From positions 248,001 to 312,000 of the forward strand of contig NZ_JAANOW010000004.1 in assembly GCF_011758805.1 (NCBI RefSeq): a stretch of 64,000 nucleotides of DNA, written 5' to 3'. The stretch is from Mycolicibacterium fluoranthenivorans. GTDB taxonomy: Bacteria; Actinomycetota; Actinomycetes; Mycobacteriales; Mycobacteriaceae. This document shows positions 6,434-56,362 of this stretch, one piece after another. Below the pieces are notes generated by a model. That model did not search any database and was not told the origin of the DNA. It saw nothing but the letters and a program-made list of their open reading frames with translations. Positions within the stretch are counted from its first letter, which is position 1. Each line of letters begins with the position of its first letter. A program made the position numbers and the translations under genes.

Positions 6434-7228
6434 ATGACATATGCCAGCATCGATTCCCTGCTCGTCGAGCTCGACGACGGGGTGCTGTCGGTGACCCTCA
6501 ATCGTCCCGACACGCTGAACTCGCTGTCCGAAGCCATGCTGACCGGTGTCGCCGAAGCCCTCGAGCGGGCCGCCACAGACCCCGCGGTCCGCGTCGTGAA
6601 GTTGGCCGGCGCGGGCCGCGGTTTCAGCTCCGGCGCCGGTATCAGCGCCGAGGATGTCTCGGCCAAGTCCGTCAACGGACCGGAGGAGGTGCTCGACGCC
6701 GCCAACCGCGCGGTGCGGTCCATCGTCGCGCTGCCCAAACCCGTCGTCGCCGTGGTGCAGGGCCCGGCCGCCGGCGTCGGCGTCTCGCTGGCGCTCGCCG
6801 CCGATATCGTATTGGCTTCGGAGAAGGCCTTTTTCATGCTGGCCTTCACCAAGATCGGACTGATGCCCGACGGCGGCGCCTCCGCCTTGATCGCGGCGGC
6901 CGTCGGGCGCATCCGCGCGCAGCGGATGGCACTGCTGGCCGAGCGCATCACCGCGGCCGAGGCCTACGACTGGGGTCTGGTCACCACGGTGCACGCCGCC
7001 GAGGACTTGGACGCCGCCGTGGCCAAGGTGATCGACACCTTGGCCACCGGCCCGGCCGTGTCGCTACGTAAGACCAAGCAGGCCATCAACGATGCCACCC
7101 TCACCGAACTCGAGGCCGCACTCGAGCGCGAACGCGAGGGTCAGCTGGTCCTGCTGACCTCCGACGATTTCCGGGAGGGCACCAGAGCCTTCCAGGAGCA
7201 CCGCAAGGCCACCTTCACCGATACGTGA
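6434..7228 (+). CDS. Enoyl-CoA hydratase/isomerase-family protein (crotonase fold)
   Basis: 264 residues from the ATG after GTGAGGGCGCATCTC; an upstream ATG at 6356 overlaps the promoter and is rejected. Crotonase signatures are clear: oxyanion-hole segments GRGFSSGAG and GPAAGVGVSLALAAD, then KIGLMPDGG. The two glutamates that hydratases use for water addition are absent: the first position is Ser in GVGVSLA and the second lies in FTKIG. An Asp in MPDGG is retained, as in PaaG-type and enoyl-CoA isomerases. An isomerase role is therefore more likely than hydration. Divergent from mcr, as echA10/echA11 are in M. tuberculosis. Confidence 0.85.
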   Translation: MTYASIDSLLVELDDGVLSVTLNRPDTLNSLSEAMLTGVAEALERAATDPAVRVVKLAGAGRGFSSGAGISAEDVSAKSVNGPEEVLDAANRAVRSIVALPKPVVAVVQGPAAGVGVSLALAADIVLASEKAFFMLAFTKIGLMPDGGASALIAAAVGRIRAQRMALLAERITAAEAYDWGLVTTVHAAEDLDAAVAKVIDTLATGPAVSLRKTKQAINDATLTELEAALEREREGQLVLLTSDDFREGTRAFQEHRKATFTDT

Positions 7229-7271
7229 TCCTGCGCCGAATAATTCGGTGGCTTCGACCAACCCCGATCGG

Positions 7272-7284
7272 TCACCATCGGTGA
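7272..7284. promoter_or_regulatory. Short palindrome before the MFS gene
   Basis: TCACC-ATC-GGTGA is a perfect 13-base palindrome ending one base before the GTG start at 7286. It could be an operator or chance. Confidence 0.25.
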
Positions 7285-7285
7285 T

Positions 7286-8548
7286 GTGACCACGCAATTG
7301 GAGCGACCGCGCTGGCGGGTACTCGCACCGTTGCGACACCGGGAGTACCGCCTGTTGATCGGCGCCGTCGCGCTGTCCATCTTCGCCTCCGGCATGTGGA
7401 CGGTGGTGATGGCGCTGCAGGTCATCGCGCTGGACAACGACCCCACCGCGCTGTCCCTGGTGGCAACCTGCTTGAGCGCAGGCTTGATCGCGTTCGTCCT
7501 GGTCGGCGGCATCGCCGCGGACCGTCTGCCGCAGCGCGCCATCATCATCGCCGTCGAATCGGTCAACACCGCCGTGGCCACGGCGGTGGCGGTACTCGGC
7601 CTCACCGGCCAGCTGCGGTTGTGGCACATGGCCGTGGGCGCCACCGCCCTCGGCGTGGGCGCCGCATTCTTCTTCCCGGCATACAGCGCCTACCTGCCGC
7701 GGCTGCTCCCGCCAGAACAACTGCTGGCCGCCAACGGAATCGAGGGCATGCTCCGGCCCACCATGCAGCAGGCCGTCGGTCCGGCGGTGGCCGGCATGCT
7801 GATCGGCGCCACCTTCCCGTCGCTGGGTGCCGTGGCCGTCGCCATTCTCTACGGCACCGGCTTGATCCTGCTCATCGCGACCAGGCCGGTGGCCCAAGCA
7901 GTTCCGGCCGAACGTCCGAGCACGCATCCGCTGGCCGATCTCCGGGACGGCTTCCGGTTCATGGTGCGCACCCCGTGGCTGCTCGCGACCTTGCTGTTCG
8001 CGAGCGGTTTCGTCCTGCTCATCATCGGTCCACTGGAAGTGCTGCTGCCGTTCATCACGAATGCGCGCTTCGCACACGGTGAGCGGATCTTCGGTTTCGT
8101 GCTGGCAGCGTTCGGCCTCGGCGGGGCGGTCGGTGCGATCGCGATCTCGTCGGTGCGCCTGCCGCGGCGCTATCTCACGGTCATGGTGATGTGCTGGGGA
8201 CTGGGCAATCTGCCGCTGGTCGCGATCGGCTACACGGCGTCGTTCGCGGTGATGGCGGCGGCCGCCTTCGTGGTGGGCATGACCAGCACCGCGGCCACCG
8301 TCATCTGGGGGACGCTGCTCCAGCGCAGGGTTCCCCCGGCGATGCTGGGCCGGGTTTCCAGCCTGGACTTCTTCGTCTCGCTGGTCTTCATGCCGGTGTC
8401 GATGGCCGTGGCCGGGCCGCTGTCCAAAGTGTTCGCGGTGCAGACCATCTTCCTGGCGGCCGGCACCATTCCGGCGGTGCTGGGTCTGATCGCCTGGCTG
8501 GCAGCCCGGATGCCGCGCGACGAGGTGGCGCATCCGCTGAATTCCTGA
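7286..8548 (+). CDS. MFS transporter (EntS/MFS_3-like)
   Basis: 420 residues starting GTG-ACC-ACG. About twelve hydrophobic segments; the loop GGIAADRLPQR between helices 2 and 3 is the family's motif A. The PAYSAYLPRLLPPEQLLAAN and GMLRPTMQQAVGPAVAG stretches are typical of the MFS_3/enterobactin-exporter branch, whose members export siderophores, macrolides or other small molecules. No partner gene reveals the substrate. It is convergent with the CPBP gene, with a short hairpin between. Confidence 0.85.
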   Translation: MTTQLERPRWRVLAPLRHREYRLLIGAVALSIFASGMWTVVMALQVIALDNDPTALSLVATCLSAGLIAFVLVGGIAADRLPQRAIIIAVESVNTAVATAVAVLGLTGQLRLWHMAVGATALGVGAAFFFPAYSAYLPRLLPPEQLLAANGIEGMLRPTMQQAVGPAVAGMLIGATFPSLGAVAVAILYGTGLILLIATRPVAQAVPAERPSTHPLADLRDGFRFMVRTPWLLATLLFASGFVLLIIGPLEVLLPFITNARFAHGERIFGFVLAAFGLGGAVGAIAISSVRLPRRYLTVMVMCWGLGNLPLVAIGYTASFAVMAAAAFVVGMTSTAATVIWGTLLQRRVPPAMLGRVSSLDFFVSLVFMPVSMAVAGPLSKVFAVQTIFLAAGTIPAVLGLIAWLAARMPRDEVAHPLNS

Positions 8549-10625: not shown

Positions 10626-11156
10626 TCAACCCTGCCCGCGGTGCAGGTCGATGAGCCCCTGATAAGACTCGGCGTTGAACCGATTGCCGGCGACCTCCTC
10701 ATCGCCGAGGCTGCGGCGCACCTTCCCCGGCACGCCCGCGACCAGCGACCGTGGCGGAATCACCGCCCCCTGGGGCACCACCGCGCCGGCCGCCACCAGC
10801 GACCCCGCACCCACGACCGCCCCGTTCAGCACGATGGCGCCCATCCCGACGAGCACGTCGTCCTCGACGGTGCAGCCGTGCAGCACCGCATTGTGGCCGA
10901 CCGTGACACCCGCGCCGACGTGCACCGGGAAACCCGGATCGACGTGGACGGTCACACCGTCTTGGATGTTGCTGCCCTCGCCGATCTCGATGGGCTCGAA
11001 CTCGGCGCGCAAGGTGGCGTTGTACCAGACACTCACGCGGGCGGCCAGCGTCACCGGGCCGATCAAGGTGGCGTTGGGCGCCACCCAGGACTCGGCGTGC
11101 AGCTGCGGGGCACGCCCGCGAATAGGAATGATCAGCGCTTCAGGCATGGGCGTCAT
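10626..11156 (-). CDS. Gamma-class carbonic anhydrase-like protein
   Basis: 176 residues, a left-handed beta-helix with hexapeptide repeats (for example IGEGSNIQDG, VGAGVTVGHNAVLHG, VGMGAIVLNGAVVGAG). The three zinc-binding histidines of the gamma-carbonic anhydrase family are visible in VTVHVD and GHNAVLHG. The C-terminal VAGVPGKVRRSL is also standard. Related proteins bind CO2/bicarbonate or are only structural. Start may be the ATG at 11156 or 11147; neither has a clear ribosome binding site. It appears monocistronic. Confidence 0.85.
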   Translation of the reverse strand: MTPMPEALIIPIRGRAPQLHAESWVAPNATLIGPVTLAARVSVWYNATLRAEFEPIEIGEGSNIQDGVTVHVDPGFPVHVGAGVTVGHNAVLHGCTVEDDVLVGMGAIVLNGAVVGAGSLVAAGAVVPQGAVIPPRSLVAGVPGKVRRSLGDEEVAGNRFNAESYQGLIDLHRGQG

Positions 11157-11267
11157 CGTAATCAGAGTTCCCGCACGAGCGCGGCAGGAGTCCGATCTCG
11201 GCGTGACATCCGACGCGTGAGTGGGTAGATTCTCTGCTCACCACAATCGAATAGCCGTCGACACGTT

Positions 11268-11462
11268 GTGGGAGAACCTCGTTCACGAGGCGCCGTAGGA
11301 GCAATATCCTCCCCGGGAATCTCTCAGGCACCAGTACCGCAGCGTCGAGGCAACTCTGGAGACAAGGCGTCACCTCATGGGAACGGCCTTACCGAAGGTG
11401 TAGAGGATCCGCGGGACGACGCGGAACCGCAGACTCTCAGGTTTCAGGACAGAGTGGGGAGG
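11268..11462 (+). ncRNA. Tandem glycine riboswitch
   Basis: Two adjacent aptamers are visible. The first carries GGGAGA, GGCGCCGTAGGAGCAA, CCTCCCCGGGAATCTCTCAGGC and ACTCTGGAGA in order (third piece read as CCTCCCCGGG then AATCTCTCAGGC). The second carries TTACCGAAGGTGTAGAGGA, ACTCTCAGGTTTCAGGACAG and AGTGGGGAG. These are the conserved parts of the gcvT-type RNA, which binds two glycines cooperatively. It lies in the leader of the L-serine dehydratase gene. The family usually turns expression on when glycine is high, which would send excess glycine-derived serine to pyruvate. Confidence 0.93.
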
Positions 11463-11471
11463 GCGCCACCG

Positions 11472-11490
11472 GCCCGGTTTGGCTCCGGGC
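11472..11490 (+). promoter_or_regulatory. Possible riboswitch expression platform
   Basis: GCCCGG and CCGGGC form a six-bp hairpin just after the second aptamer and about 60 bases before the gene. It could be a terminator stem or part of a translation-control switch; the alternate pairing was not modelled. Confidence 0.35.
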
Positions 11491-11550
11491 TCAGCCGAGA
11501 TGGAGTCGCCCGTTGTCCGTTACACCCACCGACCGCAGCCGGTAATTGCC

Positions 11551-12936
11551 ATGGTGGTCAGCGCATTCGAATTGTTCTCCGTTGGTATCGGCCCGTCGAG
11601 TTCGCACACCGTCGGCCCGATGCGTGCCGCCGCCCGGTTCGTCGAAACCCTGCGCGCCGGCGACCGGTTGCGCGACCTCACCCGGATCAGCGTGGAGTTG
11701 TACGGCTCCCTGGCGGCCACCGGCGCCGGCCACGGCACCCAATCGGCGATTCTGCTCGGGCTCGAAGGCTGCCGGCCCGAAGACGTCACCACCGAGGATA
11801 AGGAACGCCGTCTCGCCGAGATCGCCGCCACCGGCACCACGCGGATCGGCGGGGACACGCCGGTGCCCCTGACCGAGGGCGCGATGATTCTGCGCGCCTC
11901 GACGGTCCTGCCGCGCCATCCCAACGCAATGACGTTGAGTGCCTTCAATTCCCGCGGCGAGGTGCTGTCCACCCAGACCTATTACTCCATCGGAGGCGGG
12001 TTCGTCGTCACCGAGGACTGCCCCGATGCCGGCACGGACCACCACTGCGCCACCCCGTTGCCGTACGCCTCGGGTCGCGAACTGCTCGAACTCTGTGCAC
12101 ACAAGGGACTCACCATCAGCGAGGTCGCCATGAGCAACGAACAGTGTTGCCGCTCCGCGGGGGAGGTCCGGACGAGCCTGCTGCACCTGCGCGATGTCAT
12201 GGTCGAGAGTGCACGCAACGGCATCGCCCGCGACGGCGTACTGCCCGGAGTTCTAGAGGTGCGGCGGCGGGCCAAGGCCTGGTACCACAGTCTCAGCGCC
12301 GAAGATCCAGAGCGCACAGCCGAATTCGCCGAAGACTGGGTGAATCTGATCGCGCTGGCGGTCAACGAGGAGAACGCTTCCGGCGGCCGCATCGTCACGG
12401 CTCCGACCAACGGAGCTGCCGGCATCATCCCCGCCGTGCTGCACTACGCCACCCATTACACCCGCGCCGGGACGGCTGACCCGGACGACACCGCGGTACG
12501 GTTCCTGCTCACCGCGGCTGCCATCGGATCGCTGTTCAAGGAGCGCGCGTCGATCTCCGGCGCCGAGGTCGGGTGCCAGGGCGAGGTCGGGTCGGCGGCA
12601 GCCATGGCCGCTGCGGGACTGGCCGAGATCCTCGGCGGCACCACGCACCAGGTGGAGAACGCGGCCGAGATCGCCATGGAACACAGCCTCGGACTGACCT
12701 GCGATCCGATCGCCGGGCTGGTTCAGATCCCCTGCATCGAACGCAATGCCATCTCGGCGGGCAAGGCGATCAACGCCGCCCGGATGGCGTTGCGCGGCGA
12801 CGGCAGCCACCGGGTCAGCCTCGATCAGGTCATCGAGACCATGCGCACCACCGGCGCGGATATGCACGCCAAGTACAAGGAGACCTCGACCGGCGGGCTG
12901 GCCATCAACGTGGGGGTCAACGTCGTCGAATGCTGA
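11551..12936 (+). CDS. sdaA: L-serine ammonia-lyase (iron-sulfur serine dehydratase)
   Basis: 461 residues from ATG 11551; starts further upstream fall in the riboswitch platform region. [18 protein letters not shown] at the N-terminus is diagnostic. The C-terminal half has [24 protein letters not shown] and [12 protein letters not shown], which supply the cysteines of the 4Fe-4S cluster. The enzyme converts L-serine to pyruvate and ammonia. Length and sequence fit single-chain bacterial SdaA. A tandem glycine riboswitch precedes it, so glycine probably controls it. Confidence 0.95.
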
Positions 12937-42525: not shown

Positions 42526-43125
42526 TCAATATTTGCCGGCGCCGAGGGCCCTCATGGCAAAGCTGACCACCCGCTGCTTGGCGACCTCGATGAGAACCGG
42601 GTCGATGATGGACGGCACGCTCAGCTCACGGCTCACCAGCGCGCTGATCGCTACCGCGTCACTCTCGGGCTCGGCCAGCGGAAATGAGCCGTCCTCGACA
42701 CCGCGGCGCAGGATATCGACCAGCGAACGCTCCCGGTTGGCGCGCGCGAGCTCACGGGCGTGCGGGTAGCCTTTCGCGGCCCGCATCTCGTCCGACTCCA
42801 TGACAGCGAGGTAGCTGGACACCAGCGGCTCGGTCGCCAGCGCAAACATTTGCTCGATCCACGCGCGCACCTGCTCCGCCGGCGCGCCGGGCCCGCGGGC
42901 GATCTCGTCGAGCCAGCCGGACAGCGTTGCGGTCAGGTTCTGCAACATCGCCAGGAACAAGTCGTCCTTGGACTCGAAATGCCGGTAGAAAGCACGGCTG
43001 GAAACCCCGGCACGGGCCAGGATCGCCGCCACCGGAACGGGGCCCTCGTGCGGCTCCAGGAGGCAGTGGTAGGTGGCATCGATGATGCGGCCGCGTTCGT
43101 CGACATCGGGACGATCACGCGGCAC
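42526..43125 (-). CDS. TetR-family regulator upstream of the mce operon
   Basis: 199 residues from a GTG. The helix-turn-helix spans about 10-60 with VPVAAILARAGVSSRAFYRH and FESKDDLFLAML. A TAGAAT box eight bases before the GTG suggests a leaderless start. It is divergent from an alpha/beta hydrolase gene and immediately upstream of yrbEA in the same direction. Some mce operons are repressed by TetR proteins (Mce3R) and others by GntR proteins; control of this operon is inferred from position. Confidence 0.88.
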   Translation of the reverse strand: MPRDRPDVDERGRIIDATYHCLLEPHEGPVPVAAILARAGVSSRAFYRHFESKDDLFLAMLQNLTATLSGWLDEIARGPGAPAEQVRAWIEQMFALATEPLVSSYLAVMESDEMRAAKGYPHARELARANRERSLVDILRRGVEDGSFPLAEPESDAVAISALVSRELSVPSIIDPVLIEVAKQRVVSFAMRALGAGKY

Positions 43126-43222
43126 AACGCCAGATTCTAGGGACCGCGACACCACTGGACCGCCGAATGGCGGAATCCGGGCGCTGGGTAACGTGATCGA
43201 CGGGGTCGGCGAGAGGACGCGC

Positions 43223-44080
43223 GTGAGCACTGCAGACAACGCACCACAGACGGTGACTTTCCGCGGCGTCGATGACCTGGCCCTCGTCGCCGACGAGTGG
43301 AATCGCGGCATCGAGACCGATCTGCCCAGCGTGCTGCTGCTGCACGGCGGCGGGCAGAACCGCCACTCGTGGAAGAACACCGGGCAGATCCTGGCCGACC
43401 GGGGAATGCACGTCATCGCACTCGACAGCCGGGGGCACGGGGACAGCGACCGGTCCCTCACCGCCAACTACGCCGTCGAGACGCTGTGCGCGGACACCCT
43501 GCAGGTGCTCTATCAGATCGGCCGACCCGTGGCACTGATCGGTGCCAGCATGGGCGGGCTCACCGGCATCCTGGCCGCCCACGAGGCCGGACCGGACCTG
43601 GTCTCCAAGCTAGTCCTCGTCGACGTCGTGCCGCGGTTCGAGAAGGACGGCAGCGCCCGCATCCGCGATTTCATGTTCAACCACGTGCACGGGTTCGACT
43701 CGCTGGAGCAAGCGGCCGAGGCGGTGGCCGAATACCTGCCGCACCGCCCGAAACCGCGGAGCCCGGAAGGGTTGAAGAAGAATCTGCGACTACGCAACGG
43801 ACGCTGGTACTGGCATTGGGATCCGGCGTTCCTGACCAAGCCCGGCGATGACCCCTTCACCCGGGTGGACAAGTTGGAGCAGGCGGCCATGAACCTGACG
43901 GTGCCGATCCTGCTGATCCGCGGGCGCCTTTCCGACGTGGTATCCGAAGCGGGCGTCCGGGATTTCCTGGAGAAGGTGCCGGCGGCCGAGTTCGCCGAGT
44001 TGTCCGACGCCGGGCACACCGCCGCCGGCGATGACAACGACGCCTTCACCGAAGTGGTCGTCGACTTCGTCAGCCGGTGA
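43223..44080 (+). CDS. Alpha/beta hydrolase
   Basis: 285 residues from a GTG preceded by GAGAGGACGCGC. HGGGQNRHSW forms the oxyanion loop, the nucleophile is the Ser of GASMGG near residue 116, the acid is probably Asp in GRLSDVVS, and the His is in SDAGHTAAGDDND. C-C hydrolases, esterases and epoxide hydrolases share this pattern, so the reaction is open. It ends seven bases before the kinase/aminotransferase fusion, so the two are probably co-transcribed. Confidence 0.88.
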   Translation: MSTADNAPQTVTFRGVDDLALVADEWNRGIETDLPSVLLLHGGGQNRHSWKNTGQILADRGMHVIALDSRGHGDSDRSLTANYAVETLCADTLQVLYQIGRPVALIGASMGGLTGILAAHEAGPDLVSKLVLVDVVPRFEKDGSARIRDFMFNHVHGFDSLEQAAEAVAEYLPHRPKPRSPEGLKKNLRLRNGRWYWHWDPAFLTKPGDDPFTRVDKLEQAAMNLTVPILLIRGRLSDVVSEAGVRDFLEKVPAAEFAELSDAGHTAAGDDNDAFTEVVVDFVSR

Positions 44081-44087
44081 ACCGAAA

Positions 44088-46982
44088 GTGACTGAATCCG
44101 TGGGCTTCAATTTCCTTGAACAACCGGCGCTGCCCGGGCCGCAGGTTTCCGCGACCCAAGCCGAAGCGCTGCTGCACGCCCATTACGGCATGCGCGGTGC
44201 GCTGACACTTCTCGGCAGTCAACAGGACTGCAACTTCCTGGTCCACGAGGCGGGGGAACCCGTTGCGGTGCTCAAGATCGCCAATCCGGCGTTCTCGGCC
44301 ATCGAATTGGAAGCCCAGGACGCCGCGGCCGACCGCATCGCAGCGACGTGCCCGACGCTGCGAGTCGCCACCCCCATGGCCACATCGTCCGGCCAGAAGT
44401 ATGCCACCACAACAGAACTCGGCGATTCGCCGACCTACGTGCGCCTGTTGCCGTTCCTGGCCGGCGGCGCACTGACCGACGCCGGTTACCTGTCGCCACC
44501 GGTGGTGGCCGCCATGGGTGAGCTGGCCGCGCAAGTGAGCCTGGCGCTGGCCGGATTCGATCATCCCGGGCTGGATCGCGCCTTGCAGTGGGATCTGCGC
44601 TTCGGCCACGCCGTGGTCGGAGAGCTCATCTGCCACGTCTCGGAGCACGCCGACCGGATCTCGGCCGCCGCCGACGATGCGTGGGCGCGCATCGAACCCC
44701 TCGCCGCCGATCTACCCCACCAGGCCGTGCACCTGGACCTCACCGACGCCAACGTGGTCGCCGGCGAATCCGGTCTGCCCGACGGTGTCATCGATTTCGG
44801 CGATCTCTCGAACACCTGGGCGGTGTCCGAACTGGCGATCGCGCTGTCGTCGGTCCTGGGCCATCCGGGCACCGATCCGACCTCGATCCTGCCCGGCATC
44901 AAGGCCTTTCACGCGATTCGACCGCTCTCGACTGCCGAGGCGCAGGCGCTGTGGCCACTGCTGGTGCTGCGTACGGCGGTGCTGCTGGTCAGCGGGGCGC
45001 AGCAGGCGGCGCTCGATCCCGAGAACGCCTACGTCACCGAACAGTCCGAGGCGGAGTGGCGGATGTTCGAGCAGGCCGCCTCGGTCCCACCGGAGGTGAT
45101 GACGGCGCTGATCGCAGCGGAGCTGGGGTCGGCGACCGATCGGCCCGAGGTGCAGGTCGAGAATCGGCTGATCTCCGGGCTGGACCCGGATTCGGTGGTG
45201 GCCCTGGACCTCTCGGATACCCGCGACTCCTCGGACACGCTCGCCGAGGAAGCCGTGCGCGAGGGCGCAGCCCTGGTGCTCACCCGCTTCGGGCAGCCGC
45301 AGCTGAACCGCGCTCCCCTGCTCAGCCACGACAGCCCCGACGTCGTCGAGACGGGGATCAGCCTGTGGCCGGCAGCGGCCACCCGCGTGCTCGCCCCCTG
45401 GGACGCCGAGGTCACCGATCGCTCCGACGACCGCATCACGGTGCGCGGCTTGGATTTCGAACTCACCCTCACCGGTGTCGAAGCGGGCGCGGCTCCGGGC
45501 CATGTGCGCGCCGGCGAGCATCTCGGTGTGCTGGGGGCCCAGCAGTGGGCCACGGTGTCGGTCCGGCCCACCGGTGCGCCGGTGGCGCCCCGATTCGTCC
45601 GCGCCGAATTGGCGCCGGGCTGGCTGGCCCTGACCCGCGATCCGCGGGCGGTGTTGGGCCTGGATCCGCTGCCGGCCGCGGAGTCCGCACAGGAGCTGCT
45701 GGCTCGTCGCGATGACAGCTTCGCCAAGGTCCAGGAGCACTATTACCGCCGCCCGCCGCATATCGAACGCGGACAACGGCATTACCTGATGTCGACGGCC
45801 GGCCGGGTGTATCTGGACATGGTGAACAACGTCACCGTGCTGGGACATGCGCATCCGCGGGTGGCCGAGGCCGCGGCCCGCCAGCTGAGCCGGCTCAACA
45901 CCAACTCGCGGTTCAACTACGCGGCGGTCGTCGAGTTCAGCGAGCGGATCGCCGCCACGCTACCGGACCCGTTGGACACCGTGTTCATGGTCAATTCCGG
46001 TTCGGAGGCAAGTGATTTGGCCATCCGGCTGGCCATGGCCGCGACGGGGCGCCGAGATATGGTGGCCGTCCGCGAGGCGTACCACGGCTGGACCTACGCC
46101 ACCGACGCGGTGTCGACATCGACGGCCGACAACCCGAACGCGCTGTCCACCCGGCCGGACTGGGTGCACACCGTGGAGTCCCCCAACAGTTTCCGCGGAA
46201 AGTACCGCGGCGCCGAGGCGTCCCGGTATGCCACCGACGCCGTCGCACAGATCGAGCAGATGACCGCGGCGGGCCGCCCGCCCGCCGGCTTCATCTGCGA
46301 ACCGGTGTACGGTAACGCCGGCGGTATGGCCCTGCCCGAGGGCTATCTGCGCCAGGTGTACGCCGCGGTGCGTGCCGCGGGCGGGTTGGCCATCGCCGAT
46401 GAGGTGCAGGTCGGCTACGGCCGGCTGGGCCGGTGGTTCTGGGGTTTCCACGAACAGCAGGTGGTGCCCGACATCGTGTCGGTGGCCAAGGCCACCGGGA
46501 ACGGATACCCGCTGGGTGTGGTGATCACCAGCCGCGCCGTCGCCGACGCGTTCCGGTCCCAGGGGTATTTCTTCTCCTCGACCGGCGGCAGCCCGCTGTC
46601 GAGCACCATCGGCATCACCGTGCTCGACGTGCTGCGCGACGAAGGCCTGCAGGACAACGCGCTGCGGGTGGGCACGCACCTCAAGACCAGGTTGCTCGGA
46701 TTGCGGGACAAGCACCCGCTCATCGGCACGGTGCACGGGATGGGCCTGTACCTCGGGGTGGAGATGATCCGCGACCTTGAGACGCTGGAGCCGGCGACAG
46801 CCGAGACGACGGCGATCTGCGAGCGGATGCTCGATCTCGGCGTGGTCATCCAGCCGACGGGCGACCATCAGAACATCCTCAAGACCAAGCCGCCGTTGTG
46901 CATCGATATCGACGGGGCCGACTTCTACGTCGACACCCTCGACCGGGCGCTCACCGAACTGTTCCCCACCGGCGGGCGTTGA
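44088..46982 (+). CDS. Fused amino-alcohol kinase-like/class III aminotransferase (phospho-lyase-like) protein
   Basis: 964 residues from GTG 44088. Residues about 15-320 are an APH/homoserine kinase-type domain: the catalytic loop H215-L-D217-x-x-D-x-N222 and the metal Asp236 in VIDFGD are intact. Residues about 420-520 resemble the M23/biotinyl-like insert of such fusions, without obvious M23 zinc ligands. Residues about 535-960 are a class III PLP transaminase with NSGSEASDLA, DEVQVGYGRLG and PLP Lys801 in VAKATGNGYP. In animals the two activities are separate proteins: hydroxylysine kinase with its phospho-lyase, or ethanolamine-phosphate phospho-lyase. The fusion suggests phosphorylation of an amino alcohol followed by elimination of phosphate and ammonia. 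Substrate unproved. Confidence 0.85.
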   Translation: MTESVGFNFLEQPALPGPQVSATQAEALLHAHYGMRGALTLLGSQQDCNFLVHEAGEPVAVLKIANPAFSAIELEAQDAAADRIAATCPTLRVATPMATSSGQKYATTTELGDSPTYVRLLPFLAGGALTDAGYLSPPVVAAMGELAAQVSLALAGFDHPGLDRALQWDLRFGHAVVGELICHVSEHADRISAAADDAWARIEPLAADLPHQAVHLDLTDANVVAGESGLPDGVIDFGDLSNTWAVSELAIALSSVLGHPGTDPTSILPGIKAFHAIRPLSTAEAQALWPLLVLRTAVLLVSGAQQAALDPENAYVTEQSEAEWRMFEQAASVPPEVMTALIAAELGSATDRPEVQVENRLISGLDPDSVVALDLSDTRDSSDTLAEEAVREGAALVLTRFGQPQLNRAPLLSHDSPDVVETGISLWPAAATRVLAPWDAEVTDRSDDRITVRGLDFELTLTGVEAGAAPGHVRAGEHLGVLGAQQWATVSVRPTGAPVAPRFVRAELAPGWLALTRDPRAVLGLDPLPAAESAQELLARRDDSFAKVQEHYYRRPPHIERGQRHYLMSTAGRVYLDMVNNVTVLGHAHPRVAEAAARQLSRLNTNSRFNYAAVVEFSERIAATLPDPLDTVFMVNSGSEASDLAIRLAMAATGRRDMVAVREAYHGWTYATDAVSTSTADNPNALSTRPDWVHTVESPNSFRGKYRGAEASRYATDAVAQIEQMTAAGRPPAGFICEPVYGNAGGMALPEGYLRQVYAAVRAAGGLAIADEVQVGYGRLGRWFWGFHEQQVVPDIVSVAKATGNGYPLGVVITSRAVADAFRSQGYFFSSTGGSPLSSTIGITVLDVLRDEGLQDNALRVGTHLKTRLLGLRDKHPLIGTVHGMGLYLGVEMIRDLETLEPATAETTAICERMLDLGVVIQPTGDHQNILKTKPPLCIDIDGADFYVDTLDRALTELFPTGGR

Positions 46983-47167: not shown

Positions 47168-47872
47168 GTGAACGCACACACGGTGTCACTGAACCAGGCA
47201 CTGCAGGAAACCCGCACCGGCGATATCTGGCTGTTCCGGGGCGGCTCCGGACCCGATCGGGCCATCCAGGCGCTGACCAACGCACCGGTCAACCACGTCG
47301 GGATGACGGTAGCGATCGACGATCTCCCGCCGCTGATCTGGCATGCCGAACTCGGACAGAAGCTGCTGGACCTCTGGACCGGCACCCACCACCGCGGGGT
47401 GCAGCTCAACGATGCGCGTGAGGTCGTCGAGCAATGGGCGCACGGCTACGGACAGCGCTGCTGGTTGCGCCAGCTGTCGCCGTACGCGACCCGGGAGCAA
47501 GAGGATCGCCTGCTGCAGGTGATCGCCAGGATGAACGGCACGGCGTTCCCGACGACGGCCCGCCTGACCGGACGGTGGTTGCGTGGCCGGCTGCCCGTCG
47601 TCAGCGATTTCACGCGTGGGTTGCCGGTGGTGCACAAGCGGGTGCGCGAATCGGCCGAGCGGAGCAAGGCACAACGTCGCGCCGGCCTGGAGACCGCGTA
47701 CTGCGCCGAGACCGTGGCCATCACCTATGAGGAGATGGGCCTACTGCAGACCGAGAAGCGGGAGAACTACTTCGATCCGGGCAAGTTCTGGAGCGGCGAC
47801 ACCTTGTCCCTGACCGCGGGATATGCCCTGGGTGACGAGATCGCCGTCGATGTCGGTGCACCCCAGGCATAA
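47168..47872 (+). CDS. Permuted NlpC/P60-like papain-fold protein
   Basis: 234 residues from a GTG placed six bases after a TAAGCT -10 box (leaderless). The order of catalytic elements is the permuted one seen in YiiX/LRAT-like proteins: GDIWLFRG with a conserved His43 in APVNHVGM first, and the presumed nucleophile Cys179 in LETAYCAETVAITY late. Such proteins are amidases, thioesterases or acyltransferases acting on lipids or peptides. No signal peptide is seen, so it is probably cytosolic. Ends just before a long hairpin terminator. Confidence 0.72.
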   Translation: MNAHTVSLNQALQETRTGDIWLFRGGSGPDRAIQALTNAPVNHVGMTVAIDDLPPLIWHAELGQKLLDLWTGTHHRGVQLNDAREVVEQWAHGYGQRCWLRQLSPYATREQEDRLLQVIARMNGTAFPTTARLTGRWLRGRLPVVSDFTRGLPVVHKRVRESAERSKAQRRAGLETAYCAETVAITYEEMGLLQTEKRENYFDPGKFWSGDTLSLTAGYALGDEIAVDVGAPQA

Positions 47873-50970: not shown

Positions 50971-51744
50971 TCAGAGCAGTTCCCCGCCGGCTCCCGAGCC
51001 CACCGCCACACCCCGCGACGTGTCCTTGAGCGCCACCCCGGACCGGCCCAACTGGCGCGCTCCGGCGACCAGTCCGGCAGCCACGCGGGCCGCTTCCTGG
51101 TAGCCCAGGCCGTCCGGCGGGTGAATGTTGGAAATGCAGTTTCGATCCGCGTCGGTGCAGCCGGGACGCGGCCGGTGCGTCAAATAGATGCCCAGACTGT
51201 CCGCGACGCTGAGCCCGGGCCGCTCGCCGATGATGACCAGCAGCGTCCCGTATCCACCGCGGGCGGCGATATGGTCGCCCAGAGCCACCCGCGCCTGCGT
51301 CGCGATCACCGGCGGCGCCAGCGAATATCGCTGTCCCAGTTGAGCCACCAGCTCCTTGAGCAGCGGGGCGCCGTGGTGCATCAGGGCCGTCGGCGACAGC
51401 CCGTCCGCCAGGACGAAGCCGATATCGGCCGGCTGGGCCGGCACGGCCGCGAGATCCGCGGGGTTGCGGCCGAGGTCGGGCCGACGCAGGTACTCGCCCC
51501 GCGACGTCGCCTGGCTGGTCACCACGGCGGGCGTCCCGATGCCGATCTCGGTGACATCGGCAGCCAGTCGCTCCACATCGAGCGGCAGATGCACGGCATC
51601 TCGGGCCGCGGCATGAGCCGCGTTCAGTTCCAACACTTCCCGCGTCGGCAGGCCATTGCCGGCCCGGCCGAGGCCGATCCGCGCCTGGGTGGTGGTGCGC
51701 AGTTCGTCCCAGAATCGCTGGCGGGCCAGTTCCTCGGAACTCAT
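50971..51744 (-). CDS. eutC: Ethanolamine ammonia-lyase small subunit
   Basis: 257 residues, start overlapping eutB (ATGA). Contains TQARIGLGRAGNGLPTREVL, FVLADGLSP, IGERPGLSVADSLGIYLTHR and CISNIHPPDG, which are conserved in EutC and help bind adenosylcobalamin. With EutB it turns ethanolamine into acetaldehyde and ammonia. Last gene of the permease-eutB-eutC operon. Confidence 0.96.
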   Translation of the reverse strand: MSSEELARQRFWDELRTTTQARIGLGRAGNGLPTREVLELNAAHAAARDAVHLPLDVERLAADVTEIGIGTPAVVTSQATSRGEYLRRPDLGRNPADLAAVPAQPADIGFVLADGLSPTALMHHGAPLLKELVAQLGQRYSLAPPVIATQARVALGDHIAARGGYGTLLVIIGERPGLSVADSLGIYLTHRPRPGCTDADRNCISNIHPPDGLGYQEAARVAAGLVAGARQLGRSGVALKDTSRGVAVGSGAGGELL

Positions 51745-53156
51745 GACGCGCCCGCCGAGGTCAACGACCGCAGGGGTGACCGGGTGACGTCGAACGGCGT
51801 CAACCGGCCCGCGGTGTCGATCATGCCGATGCGGCGCAGCCAGTCCTCGAATTCGCGGGCCGGTCGCAGCCCGAGCGTGCGCCGGGTGGACAGCACATCG
51901 TGGAATGACAGGCTCTGGTAGCCCAGCATGACGTCATCGGCTCCGGGAACGGTGATGACGAACGCGCACCCGGCCGCGGCCAGCAGCGTCAGCAGGTTGT
52001 CCATATCGTTCTGGTCGGCCTCGGCGTGGTTGGTGTAGCAGACATCGACGCCCATCGGCAGGCCGAGCAGCTTGCCGCAGAAGTGATCTTCCAAACCGGC
52101 GCGGATGATCTGCCTGCCGTCGTACAGGTACTCCGGGCCGATGAACCCGACCACCGTATTGACCAACAGCGGCTGCAGGTCACGCGCGACGGCGTAGGCC
52201 CGGACCTCCAGCGTCTGCTGGTCGACGGGCTTGCCGCCCACCCCGAGATGCGTGTGCGAACTCAACGCCGAGCCCTGCCCGGTCTCCAGGTACATCACGT
52301 TGTCGCCCACGGTGCCGCGATGCAGCGAGCGTGCCGCCTCATTGCCCTCCCGCAGCAGCTTGATGTCCACCCCGAATGCCGAGTTGGCGCCCTCGGTGCC
52401 GGCGATCGACTGGAACACCAGATCGACGGGGACGCCCTCTTCGATCAGCCCGATGGTCGTGGTGATGTGCGACAGCACGCACGACTGCGCCGGAATGTCG
52501 TAGCGGGCCCGGATCGAGTCCAGCAGGTACAGCAGATCCGCTGTGGCATGCGGTGAATCGGTTGCGGGGTTGATGCCGATGACGGCGTCACCACACCCCA
52601 GCAGCAGCCCGTCGAGCACCGCCGCGGCGATTCCGCGCGGGTCGTCGGTCGGATGGTTCGGCTGCAGCCGGGTGGCCAGGGTGCCCGGCGCGCCGACGGT
52701 CGTCCGGAACGCCGCGGTGACCTCCGTGGCGGCGGCGACCGCGATCAGATCCTGATTGCGCATGATCTTGCTGACCGCTGCGGCCATCTCGGGCGTGACC
52801 CCGGCTGTGACGGAAGCGATCCGCTGCGGACCGTCGTCACGAGAGGCGTTGTCCAGCAGCCAGTCCCGGAATCCACCCACGGTCAGATGCGAAATGGCCG
52901 AGAAGGCCTCGCGGTCGTGGGTGTCGATGATCAGCCGGGTCACCTCGTCGGTGTCGTAGGCCACCACCTCCTCGTCGAGGAAAGTCTGCAACGGGAGGTC
53001 AGCCAAAGTCCATGCGGCAGCGGCCCTCTCAGCATCGGACTCGGCCGCGCACCCGGCAAGCTGGTCCCCGGAGCGCAACGGCGTCGCCTTCGCCATGACC
53101 TCGACGAGGCCGTCGAAGGTATAGCTGGTCCCGGAGACTTGCTGCCGGTAGATCAT
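51741..53156 (-). CDS. eutB: Ethanolamine ammonia-lyase large subunit
   Basis: 471 residues. Nearly every conserved block of EutB is present: LRSGDQLAGCAAES, GDAVIGINPATDS, YLETGQGSALSSHTHLG, GPEYLYDGRQIIRAGLEDHF and CYTNHAEADQNDMDN (ethanolamine and cobalamin site region). Length matches the family. Overlaps permease and eutC by ATGA. No reactivase (eutA) and no microcompartment genes are in the window, so this is the compact cytosolic form. Confidence 0.97.
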   Translation of the reverse strand: MIYRQQVSGTSYTFDGLVEVMAKATPLRSGDQLAGCAAESDAERAAAAWTLADLPLQTFLDEEVVAYDTDEVTRLIIDTHDREAFSAISHLTVGGFRDWLLDNASRDDGPQRIASVTAGVTPEMAAAVSKIMRNQDLIAVAAATEVTAAFRTTVGAPGTLATRLQPNHPTDDPRGIAAAVLDGLLLGCGDAVIGINPATDSPHATADLLYLLDSIRARYDIPAQSCVLSHITTTIGLIEEGVPVDLVFQSIAGTEGANSAFGVDIKLLREGNEAARSLHRGTVGDNVMYLETGQGSALSSHTHLGVGGKPVDQQTLEVRAYAVARDLQPLLVNTVVGFIGPEYLYDGRQIIRAGLEDHFCGKLLGLPMGVDVCYTNHAEADQNDMDNLLTLLAAAGCAFVITVPGADDVMLGYQSLSFHDVLSTRRTLGLRPAREFEDWLRRIGMIDTAGRLTPFDVTRSPLRSLTSAGAS

Positions 53157-54574
53157 TTGAGTTCACTCTCCGCTTTGGCCAGCATCGCGAACTCTTCGTC
53201 GGGTGAGTTCGCCACCAGTCGATGCCGGCTGTACACCGCGAAGTATCCCATGAACGCGGCGAAGACGCCGAGGCAAGAGAGCGCGGCGATACTGTCGACC
53301 AGGAAGGTCGCGATGACCGCGAGTACCGCGACGACGAGCGCGAACCCGGTGGTGACAGCTCCACCGGGCGTGCGGTACGGCCGGCGCATCTGCGGTTCAC
53401 GCCAGCGCAGCACGATGTGGCTGACCATCATCAGCACGTAGCTCAGCGCGGCCCCGAAGACCGCCATGTTGAGCAGCAGCGCACCCTCACCCGTCAGCGA
53501 CAGCGCGAAGCCGATGACACCGGGAACGATCAGCGCCAGCGTCGGCGCCTTGCGAGAGTTGGTGACAGACAATCGGGTTGGCAGGTAGCCGGCACGAGAC
53601 AGGGCGAACAGCTGCCGGGAGTAGGCGTAGATGATGGAGAAGAAGCTGGCGATCAACCCGGCCAGGCCGATGTAGTTGACCACCTTCGCGGCCGCACCGT
53701 CGCCGAGGGCCTCCACCAGCGGGTTGCCCGAGGACGACATCTGCTCGGCGCCGCCGGCACCGGTGGCCAGGACCAGCACCACCGCGCAGCTGACCAGCAG
53801 CACCGTGATCGCGGCGATGATGCCGCGCGGGACGTTGCGCTCGGGATCGGCGGTCTCCTCGGCGGCCAGCGGCACACCTTCCACGGCAAGGAAAAACCAG
53901 ATGGCGAAGGGGATCGCGGCCCAGATGCCCATGTAACCGTGTGGCAGGAACGCCGAGGATCCCACCGCATCCGAGGGTGCGATATCGGTCAGGTTGGCGG
54001 CGTCGAACTGCCCGGCGGCGAAGACGGCGAAGACGACCAGTCCGACCAGCGCGATGGCGGTGATGACGAACATCACCTTCAGCGCCTCACCGACACCGGA
54101 CAGGTGGATACCGATGAAAAGCACATAGGCGGCCAGATAGACCCACCAGCCGTCGGTGATGCCGAACAGCCCGAGCGATTCGACATAGGCGCCGATGAAC
54201 GTCGCGATGGCCGCGGGTGCGATCGCGTATTCGATGAGAATGGCTGTGCCGGTGGCGAATCCGCCCCATGGACCGAGTGCGCGGCGGGCGAAGGTGTAGC
54301 CGCCGCCGGCGGCCGGCAACGCCGAGGACAGCTCGGCCATGCCGAGCACCAGCGCCAGGTACATCGCGGCGATCACCACTGCGGCGATAGCCAATCCGCC
54401 GAATCCCCCTTGGGCCAGACCGAAATTCCAGCCCGAGTAGTCGCCCGAGACGACATAGCTGACGCCCAGACCGGCCAGCAGAACCCAGCCGGCGCTACCC
54501 GATTTGAGCTGCCGCTGCTGCAGATAACTGGCGCTCTCGAGGTGCTCCTCCACTGCGCCGTGACTTGTCGTCAC
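53153..54574 (-). CDS. Ethanolamine permease (APC family)
   Basis: 473 residues from the GTG behind AAGGGAGTGGGAA. About twelve membrane helices. LGVSYVVSGDYSGWNFGLAQ near the N-terminus, FFLAVEGVPLAAEETADPER and SRKAPTLALIVPG are typical of the ethanolamine permease branch of the APC superfamily. Translational overlap with eutB supports ethanolamine as the substrate. An earlier TTG start at 54676 is in frame but is not favoured. Confidence 0.9.
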   Translation of the reverse strand: MTTSHGAVEEHLESASYLQQRQLKSGSAGWVLLAGLGVSYVVSGDYSGWNFGLAQGGFGGLAIAAVVIAAMYLALVLGMAELSSALPAAGGGYTFARRALGPWGGFATGTAILIEYAIAPAAIATFIGAYVESLGLFGITDGWWVYLAAYVLFIGIHLSGVGEALKVMFVITAIALVGLVVFAVFAAGQFDAANLTDIAPSDAVGSSAFLPHGYMGIWAAIPFAIWFFLAVEGVPLAAEETADPERNVPRGIIAAITVLLVSCAVVLVLATGAGGAEQMSSSGNPLVEALGDGAAAKVVNYIGLAGLIASFFSIIYAYSRQLFALSRAGYLPTRLSVTNSRKAPTLALIVPGVIGFALSLTGEGALLLNMAVFGAALSYVLMMVSHIVLRWREPQMRRPYRTPGGAVTTGFALVVAVLAVIATFLVDSIAALSCLGVFAAFMGYFAVYSRHRLVANSPDEEFAMLAKAESELK

Positions 54575-54727
54575 TTCCCACTCCCTTGGTTTTCTCTCTC
54601 GGGGCCGCACCTCAGCCGATACACCGGCGATGGGGCCGACGGGCGACACTTCGCGCCCAAAAGGTAGTTTTTCCAACCTTTAAAATAGTGTGACGTATGC
54701 CCCGGTTCTTGTCTAGCGCAACCGCGG

Positions 54728-54772: not shown

Positions 54773-54842
54773 CGTCAGGATCGTCGTTTCCTCGCGCAAG
54801 CGCTCGTCAGGATCGTCGTCTCCTCGCGCGAGCGCTCGTCAG
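54773..54842. repeat. 32-bp tandem repeat at the stop codon of the aldehyde dehydrogenase gene
   Basis: Two copies (54773-54804 and 54805-54836) differ at two positions. A third partial copy (CGTCAG) contains the gene's stop codon (54839-54841). The units contain GCGC-rich palindromic pieces (TCGCGCGAG) but no strong hairpin. The arrangement resembles the array at 20334-20473, although the sequences differ. Confidence 0.75.
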
Positions 54843-56362
54843 AAGAAGCCGGCGGCGTTTTCGCTGTAGCTGACCAGCAGGTTCTTGGTCTGCTGGTAAT
54901 GATCGAGCATCATCTTGTGGTTCTCCCGGCCGATACCGGACTGCTTGTACCCACCGAACGCCGCATGCGCCGGATACTGGTGATAACAATTCGTCCACAC
55001 CCGACCAGCCTTGATATCACGACCCGCCCGATACGCGGTATTACCGCTACGACTCCACACCCCCGCACCCAACCCATACAACGTGTCATTGGCCTGCGCG
55101 ATCGCATCCGCATAATCAGTGAACGACGTCACCGCCACCACCGGCCCGAAAATCTCCTCCTGGAAAATCCGCATCTTGTTATGCCCGGTGAAAATCGTCG
55201 GCGCCACATAAAAACCACCACCCAGATCCCCACCAAGCTCCGCACGCTCACCACCAGTGAGCACCTGAGCACCCTCACCCTTACCGATCTCGATATACGA
55301 CAGAATCTTCTCCAACTGATCATTGGAGGCCTGCGCACCGATCATCGTCTCAGTATCAAGAGGATCCCCCTGACGCACCGCCTTCGTCCGGATCGCCGCC
55401 AACGCCAAAAACTCGTCATAAATATCAGCCTGAATCAACGACCGCGACGGACACGTACACACCTCACCCTGATTCAGGGCGAACATCGTGAACCCCTCCA
55501 ACGCCTTATCCTGATACGCGTCATCGCTCGCCAACACATCACTGAAGAAAATGTTCGGCGACTTCCCACCGAGCTCCAGGGTCACCGGGATCAGGTTCTG
55601 GCTGGCGTACTGCATGATCAACCGGCCCGTCGTCGTCTCCCCGGTGAACGCGATCTTCGCGATCCGATTCGACGACGCCAACGGCTTACCCGCCTCCACC
55701 CCGAAACCATTCACAATGTTCACCACACCGGCAGGCAACAAATCCCCGATGACCTCGAACAGATACAGAATCGACGCCGGAGTCTGCTCAGCCGGCTTGA
55801 GCACCACCGCATTACCCGCCGCCAACGCCGGCGCCAACTTCCACACCGCCATCAAAATCGGGAAATTCCACGGGATGATCTGGCCCACCACACCCAACGG
55901 CTCATGAAAGTGATACGCCACGGTGTCCTCATCGATCTGCGACAACGACCCCTCCTGCGCGCGCAGCACACCGGCGAAATACCGGAAATGATCCACCGCC
56001 AACGGAATATCAGCATTCAGCGTCTCCCGGACCGGCTTACCGTTATCCCAGGACTCCGCCACCGCGATCGACTCCAGATTCTCCTCAATCCGATCCGCGA
56101 CCCTATTCAAGATCACCGCCCGCTCCGCCGGACTGGTCTTACCCCACCCCGGGGCCGCCGCATGCGCGGCATCCAACGCCGCCTCCACATCAGCCTCATC
56201 CGAACGCGGAATCTCACAGAAAACCTGCCCCGTCACCGGCGTCGGGTTCTCGAAATACCGGCCGGCCACCGGGGCCACCCACTGCCCACCGATGAAATTG
56301 CCATAACGGGACTTAAACGACATCAAAGCGCCTTCAGTACCCGGGCGCGCGTAAACGGTCAC
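54839..56362 (-). CDS. NAD-dependent aldehyde (acetaldehyde) dehydrogenase
   Basis: 507 residues from a GTG preceded by AGGAGGTCAACT; length and N-terminus ([15 protein letters not shown]) match M. tuberculosis Rv0458. [44 protein letters not shown] and [13 protein letters not shown] (catalytic Cys) are all present. It should oxidise acetaldehyde from ethanolamine to acetate. Codon choice is odd: the coding strand is rich in NNG and NNT codons (GTG, GCG, GGG, TTG, GGT), while its neighbours prefer NNC. This points to a separate history or special selection. Divergence is not involved; the GAF regulator lies just upstream on the same strand. Confidence 0.93.

Follow-up and report, generated by a model that had tools for sequence, protein, structure and literature searches.

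A candidate two-step amino-alcohol degrading enzyme: fusion of a kinase and a phospho-lyase-like domain in Mycolicibacterium fluoranthenivorans

Introduction

Which reaction is catalyzed by a protein that joins a kinase to a class III enzyme dependent on pyridoxal phosphate (PLP), and on which compound does it act? This question is raised by a gene of Mycolicibacterium fluoranthenivorans found at 44088..46982 (+) of a window, by which we mean the whole stretch of 64,000 nucleotides that was analyzed (NCBI RefSeq assembly GCF_011758805.1, contig NZ_JAANOW010000004.1, positions 248,001 to 312,000 of the forward strand). Judged by sequence comparison, the gene product is very likely a two-step amino-alcohol degrading enzyme, in which a kinase is followed by a phospho-lyase. 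The N-terminal APH-type kinase would phosphorylate the hydroxyl group of a small compound of the type R-CH(OH)-CH2-NH2 using ATP, the C-terminal PLP domain would eliminate the phosphate, and the enamine/imine thus formed would hydrolyze to ammonia and an aldehyde R-CH2-CHO, while the middle domain is a relic of M23 type that may now serve as a structural element or linker. Putative channelling within the single chain is plausible. Many such bacterial proteins carry the bare label "aminotransferase," which conceals that a kinase is involved and that elimination is the likely chemistry. With the substrate identified, these labels would be corrected, and a further route may emerge by which soil bacteria use amino alcohols or hydroxylated polyamines for the recovery of nitrogen.

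Comparable chemistry is known from animals, in which hydroxylysine kinase (HYKK/AGPHD1) and PHYKPL are separate proteins, the former being an APH-type kinase and the latter the class III lyase that acts after it. The two-step logic is the same as in the fusion, likened here by description only, but it is distributed over two proteins instead of one chain. In one report, ethanolamine-phosphate phospho-lyase (ETNPPL) and one close relative are given as the class III lyases that had been documented before the enzyme treated there (PMC8154272).

Two Intact-Looking Active Sites in One Chain

The open frame of the fusion gene runs from a GTG to the stop codon over 964 uninterrupted codons (44088-46982, +). 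A listed reading frame opens farther upstream at ATG 44031; from there, the frame and the preceding gene would share 50 bases, whereas GTG 44088 leaves a gap of 7 bases, and the latter is therefore probably the start codon. A scan for promoters and terminators has given no signal that stands out from shuffled sequences. Pfam assigns an APH domain to residues 46-262 (E 1.9e-19, 70.8 bits vs. a cut-off of 23.2) and Aminotran_3 (PF00202) to residues 558-955 (E 1.3e-69), with no named domain between them, so that the kinase and class III PLP enzyme described in a preliminary account of this DNA, which had been made from the letters alone, are indeed both present in one 964-residue chain. The whole of it is covered by a single NCBIfam model, NF004800 (PRK06149, "aminotransferase," 972 positions), that spans residues 6-957 with 1418.6 bits against a cut-off of 973. 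All three regions of the window chain are contained in this model without architectural difference, and its name conveys no phospho-lyase role. The second-best family match, under its own cut-off, is NF004799 (PRK06148, "hypothetical protein"), which shows the same domain order of kinase, M23 and class III enzyme. Within its own genome, the fusion is the sole full-length match, and 11 other places match the PLP part only.

The kinase domain occupies residues 1-330 (44088..45077, +; approximate borders) around the PF01636 match. APH-type kinases conserve the motif HxDxxxxN, a second aspartate and an ATP-binding lysine, and all of these are present in the fusion: HxDxxxxN at residues 215-222 and IDFGD at 235-239 (44730..44804, +), together with K63. 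In an alignment of 46 fusions, D47, K63, H215, D217, N222, D236, and D239 have been found identical throughout. The domain can thus be regarded, on the basis of its conserved residues, as a small-molecule kinase that looks functional but whose substrate is uncertain. The kinase-domain relatives listed (120 of 345; 204-585 amino acids, several labelled partial) include none named hydroxylysine kinase, look largely like pieces of fusions, and are uninformative on function.

The PLP domain comprises residues 531-964 (45678..46979, +). A search of the PDB has placed the human ethanolamine-phosphate phospho-lyase ETNPPL (6tor) first with E 4.6e-102 and the bacterial phospholyase 5g4i second; chains of a decarboxylase, racemase and transaminase kind rank behind these two. 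Over 403 aligned columns, 6tor is 42% identical to the window domain; 5g4i, which we take to be the Arthrobacter phospholyase A1RDF1, is 34% identical over 426. Unlike the fusion, both are standalone chains, ETNPPL with 499 residues and neither kinase nor middle domain, 5g4i with 446 residues. The PLP Schiff-base lysine Lys801 (46488..46490, +) is kept in 46/46 fusions. Common to both solved phospho-lyases and to the window protein are three motifs. NNV (580-582) and NTNSR (604-608; together 45825..45911, +) have counterparts in 6tor, 5g4i, and L002, a paralogue encoded in the same genome, and are missing from six other class III paralogues of that genome and from 1z3z. The third motif, GDHQNILK (925-932; 46860..46883, +), corresponds to GPHRNVLK in 6tor, GPHDNVLK in 5g4i, and GAHGNVLK in L002; among the other paralogues, only L004 and L006 retain its NVL part, without the histidine. 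As the paralogue alignment comprised the fusion and seven loci from the 12 places listed, the last four being left out, and the motif set is our own, the use of these motifs as phospho-lyase marks is an inference from few sequences; together with the closeness to 6tor and 5g4i, they would place the domain among the class III phospho-lyases. The residues to which the preliminary description had assigned catalysis (H215, D217, N222, D236, and K801) are all located as proposed and are invariant in the 46 aligned fusions.

Kinase and Lyase Genes Side by Side

If kinase and lyase act in succession, their genes may also be expected to meet where they are not fused. Such a case has been found in the genome of the window itself, where an unfused APH kinase (7033-8157, -), a permease-like gene with a weak match to a model of amino acid transporters, and the standalone phospho-lyase-like L002 lie together on contig C1 (L067:7033-11093), constituting a second and separate kinase-lyase set. 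We compared this locus, and 20 regions that surround standalone relatives in further genomes of the genus, chosen among the matches listed, with 53 random control windows of 17 kb drawn from 18 genomes (10 of the genus and eight of Pseudomonas). An APH kinase has been observed within ∼2 kb of the unfused lyase in 17 of the 21 loci, or in 16 of 20 when L067 is set aside as the source of one query, and a kinase match in none of the 53 controls. Thirteen of these kinases are of the L067 type, and the other four, located upstream on the same strand, resemble the kinase of the fusion; the two of them that were scanned (L185 and L197) show a match to PRK06148 at its kinase end. The remaining four loci (L181, L182, L184, and L186) contain no kinase in the stretch. 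The permease-like gene accompanies 13 of the 21 loci, among them nine of the 13 whose kinase is of L067 type and all four without a kinase, and an aldehyde dehydrogenase is present at two (L196 and L197). Taken together, the nearest solved relatives, the motifs, the conserved catalytic residues and these unfused neighbors support the earlier assignment of a kinase plus phospho-lyase over that of a plain transaminase.

Several observations weigh against this assignment. The 13 neighbors of L067 type are orthologues within one genus, and their loci therefore do not represent independent events. The solved relatives of the kinase domain are only remote, since the window sequence alone matches no solved chain at E 0.1, and a profile of 11 kinase sequences was needed to reach 6ef6, the homoserine kinase 2ppq, an amicoumacin kinase, and an APH (two APH in all). 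Moreover, an aldehyde dehydrogenase has been found near the fusion at none of 65 fusion loci, compared to six of the 53 control windows; the 65 loci exclude the window itself, in which the acetaldehyde dehydrogenase ExaC sits ∼8 kb away. The expected next step is therefore not co-located, and aldehyde dehydrogenase has been rejected as a partner of the fusion.

Candidate Substrates

The substrate class that fits the fusion best is that of terminal vicinal amino alcohols, with ethanolamine not being favored by the genome evidence. The candidates are hydroxylysine, a hydroxylated polyamine, ethanolamine, and 1-amino-2-propanol, the remaining probability being left to a different amino alcohol or to the absence of such a reaction. 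As a tentative possibility, the substrate could be 5-hydroxylysine, so that the fusion would unite what correspond in bacteria to hydroxylysine kinase and to 5-phosphohydroxylysine phospho-lyase, with 2-aminoadipate semialdehyde as the product. Regulators of the Lrp/AsnC type adjoin the fusion in L061 and the second fusion of L060, importer genes of oligopeptide type lie near it in L095-L097 and L107, and two of 120 listed source records bear the name "hydroxylysine kinase." These names are probably automatic, however, and the annotated flanks of L059-L061 name no gene of an aminoadipate pathway.

A rather unlikely alternative is that many lineages act on a di- or polyamine bearing a hydroxyl group, e.g., 2-hydroxyputrescine, which after elimination of its phosphate would give 4-aminobutyraldehyde, a normal polyamine intermediate. 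In the Pararhizobium locus L059, the fusion is followed downstream by Pot-type ATP-binding cassette (ABC) transporter genes and by an HDAC-type and an AguB-type gene. Fourteen of the 18 annotated neighbors of L059 were searched for near fusions of 17 other lineages, which had been assigned by identity and in part checked in a tree; two short and two end-cut genes were left out. The PotB-type permease recurs in seven and the PotC-type permease in 12 of 15 loci of one Mycobacterium clade, the HDAC-type gene in L107 and L065, AguB in three of 15 Pseudomonas loci, and an amidohydrolase once, in L062, each of them being absent from all 53 controls. Two ABC ATPases match lineages and controls alike (four and five of 53) and have not been taken as evidence; the PotD-type gene has been found in one control but in none of the lineages, and the six other flank genes match neither the 17 lineages nor the 53 controls. 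Recurrence is confined to four of the 17 lineages, which exceeds the control windows with p 0.003 for lineages that are not fully independent, and the controls come from the two most-sampled genera only. In the Mycobacterium locus L110, NCBIfam indicates Pot-type permeases and a binding protein, all below their cut-offs. AguA lies near the fusion in 12 of 15 Pseudomonas loci, one of which (L051) is the source of the query, and is matched with 35% identity in L106. The unfused pair L197 adjoins an aminobutyraldehyde dehydrogenase above its cut-off, as would suit the expected product, but at the 65 fusion loci no such partner accompanies the gene. An earlier panel of polyamine genes had matched 28/65 fusion loci and 2/53 controls; it was biased because its members had been picked from the very loci tested. 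Further, Pot-type importers and HDAC-like enzymes also handle other compounds. For the window, the polyamine reading is weakened by the finding that none of these polyamine-type genes, AguA included, occurs in the 16 loci of its own clade or in the window itself.

A wider reading, which we regard as doubtful, is that PRK06149 fusions in general serve a polyamine-linked catabolic route not recognized so far. A hydroxylated diamine, brought into the cell by Pot-type transporters or released by hydrolases of acetylpolyamine type, would be phosphorylated and then eliminated to an aminoaldehyde within a single chain. The ancestral M23 domain would once have contributed a third activity and have decayed since in most of the family, and the mycobacterial clade of the window, characterized by an adjacent alpha/beta hydrolase, would have turned to a different amino alcohol.

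Ethanolamine had been brought forward in the preliminary description because of a eut set at ∼4 kb distance. The set is indeed present: EutC, EutB, and an ethanolamine permease (50971..54676, -) begin 3989 bases downstream of the fusion on the opposite strand and are followed by ExaC (54839..56329, -; NF050026, 950.9 bits vs. a cut-off of 900), each member matching its NCBIfam model above cut-off. With ethanolamine as the substrate, the fusion would provide a B12-independent bypass of the adjacent eut ammonia-lyase and supply the same acetaldehyde to ExaC, and the name of the nearest solved relative, 6tor, would agree with this. We nevertheless consider it improbable. Among 148 genomes of the genus, 21 contain both fusion and EutB, 40 only the fusion, 28 only EutB, and 59 neither, which corresponds to independence (odds ratio 1.1, p 0.86). 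In 11 of the 21 genomes with both, the two genes share a contig, at a distance of 7.6 kb in the window and of 0.7-4.3 Mb in the ten others (one of several copies being used for G098); in the remaining ten, they lie on different contigs and the distance is indeterminable. EutB has been found near the fusion in none of nine relatives for which 10 kb downstream could be inspected, and close proximity is limited to the window and L039, an 88% identical relative. Neither a conserved neighborhood nor co-occurrence with EutB thus connects the fusion to the eut set. Because the two are independent in the 148 genomes and their proximity is not conserved, the eut genes are most likely a chance neighbor, related to the fusion by position only; the eut link has consequently been rejected, and the substrate derived from it does not follow from the distance. 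Separately, four genomes (G050, G088, G092, and G147) have been noticed to carry a second EutB copy each, 74-75% identical to that of the window and with one in-frame TGA.

Very improbable, finally, is an ordinary transaminase to which a kinase that acts on something else, or that has a role in regulation or resistance, has been joined by accident: the family name "aminotransferase" given by the NCBIfam model and in many of the source records, and the aminoglycoside and amicoumacin kinases among the solved relatives, would agree with it, but the motif comparison speaks against a plain transaminase, the six class III paralogues lacking the phospho-lyase-type motifs, and so do the proximity of separate kinase and lyase genes in 17/21 loci and the retention of the catalytic residues of both domains in 46/46 fusions.

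A Middle Domain That Has Lost Its Zinc Motif

Between kinase and PLP domain, residues 331-530 (45078..45677, +; approximate borders) have been aligned by hhalign to that part of PRK06148-type fusions which bears M23, with a probability of 98.5% over 204 columns. The relationship to the M23 family is visible by sequence profile only, the window protein itself having no Pfam M23 match. In place of the zinc motifs HxxxD and HxH of M23, the window has E422/S425 and T489/S491, in accordance with the initial view of an M23-like insert without zinc ligands. Both motifs are kept in seven of the 46 fusions (L060b, L065, L098, L099, L100, L064, and L066), while the other 39 do not have both. Five of the seven, namely the PRK06148-type L060b, L065, L098, L099, and L100, form a group apart from all others in a midpoint-rooted tree and differ from the window by their intact motifs. 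Pfam M23 lies above its cut-off in both PRK06148-type fusions scanned (L060b and L065), of which L065 is slightly below the cut-off of PRK06148.

The remaining two, L064 and L066, stand outside the PRK06148-type group yet keep HxxxD and HxH. They diverge earlier in the tree than the Pseudomonas, Rhizobiaceae and main Mycobacterium groups, and the zinc motif has for this reason probably been lost within the fusion family. L107, which is without the motif, is drawn still earlier in the tree on a very long branch, so that either the motif was lost twice or L107 is misplaced; the branches of L065 and L066 are long as well. The series of fusions with and without both motifs provides a good example of a catalytic domain decaying within a multi-domain enzyme.

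Distribution of the Fusion Family

In a protein search, 4636 of 7997 scored candidates match the fusion at E ≤ 0.001, and every one of the 120 matches listed contains both Pfam domains, which shows that the fusion is not a chance product. Within the genus, 61 of 148 genomes score above the NF004800 cut-off, and so do 114 of 149 Pseudomonas genomes. In samples of the respective phyla, the numbers are six of 296 genomes for the window, three of them of its genus including its own, and six of 299 for Pseudomonas. The novelty that the fusion seemed to have at first is weakened by the existing model for the whole architecture; many bacteria are already on record with this design, and the window protein is an ordinary representative of a family that is known but biochemically open. 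Bacterial fusions of this kind are said to have been the clue by which a 2012 study identified the animal enzymes. No assay of a bacterial fusion appears in the titles and abstract openings of the matches listed in our literature search, and as far as this search shows, the family is experimentally open. New here are the test on unfused pairs, the decay of the zinc motif and the polyamine-type neighbors in other lineages.

Two loci of other lineages have drawn attention for their gene content. On pSymB of Sinorhizobium meliloti, two fusions, one of PRK06149 and one of PRK06148 type, lie 1.2 kb apart (L060:8965-16207) and flank a binding-protein gene, with hut and betaine-type transport genes adjoining. 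In L064, the fusion is faced by a Rieske oxygenase (10904-12181, +) that weakly resembles glycine betaine monooxygenase (171 bits vs. a cut-off of 670).

Immediate Surroundings in the Window

The closest neighbor of the fusion is an alpha/beta hydrolase (43112..44080, +; Abhydrolase_1, 87.7 bits), which ends 7 bases upstream and is a conserved partner in the clade, and next to it a divergent regulator of TetR type is encoded (42526..43143, -; TetR_N, 39.3 bits). In the 30 best loci by score (L009-L038), for which flanks of only 1.5 kb were considered, the hydrolase precedes the fusion in 29 and a TetR-type gene faces it in 20. Genes farther upstream, which we take to be mce/yrbE-like, are common to eight of nine longer loci of the clade. 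Downstream, a gene at 47168-47872 (+) without Pfam or NCBIfam match is retained in most of the clade loci with long flanks, and its product may resemble a permuted NlpC/P60-type protein.

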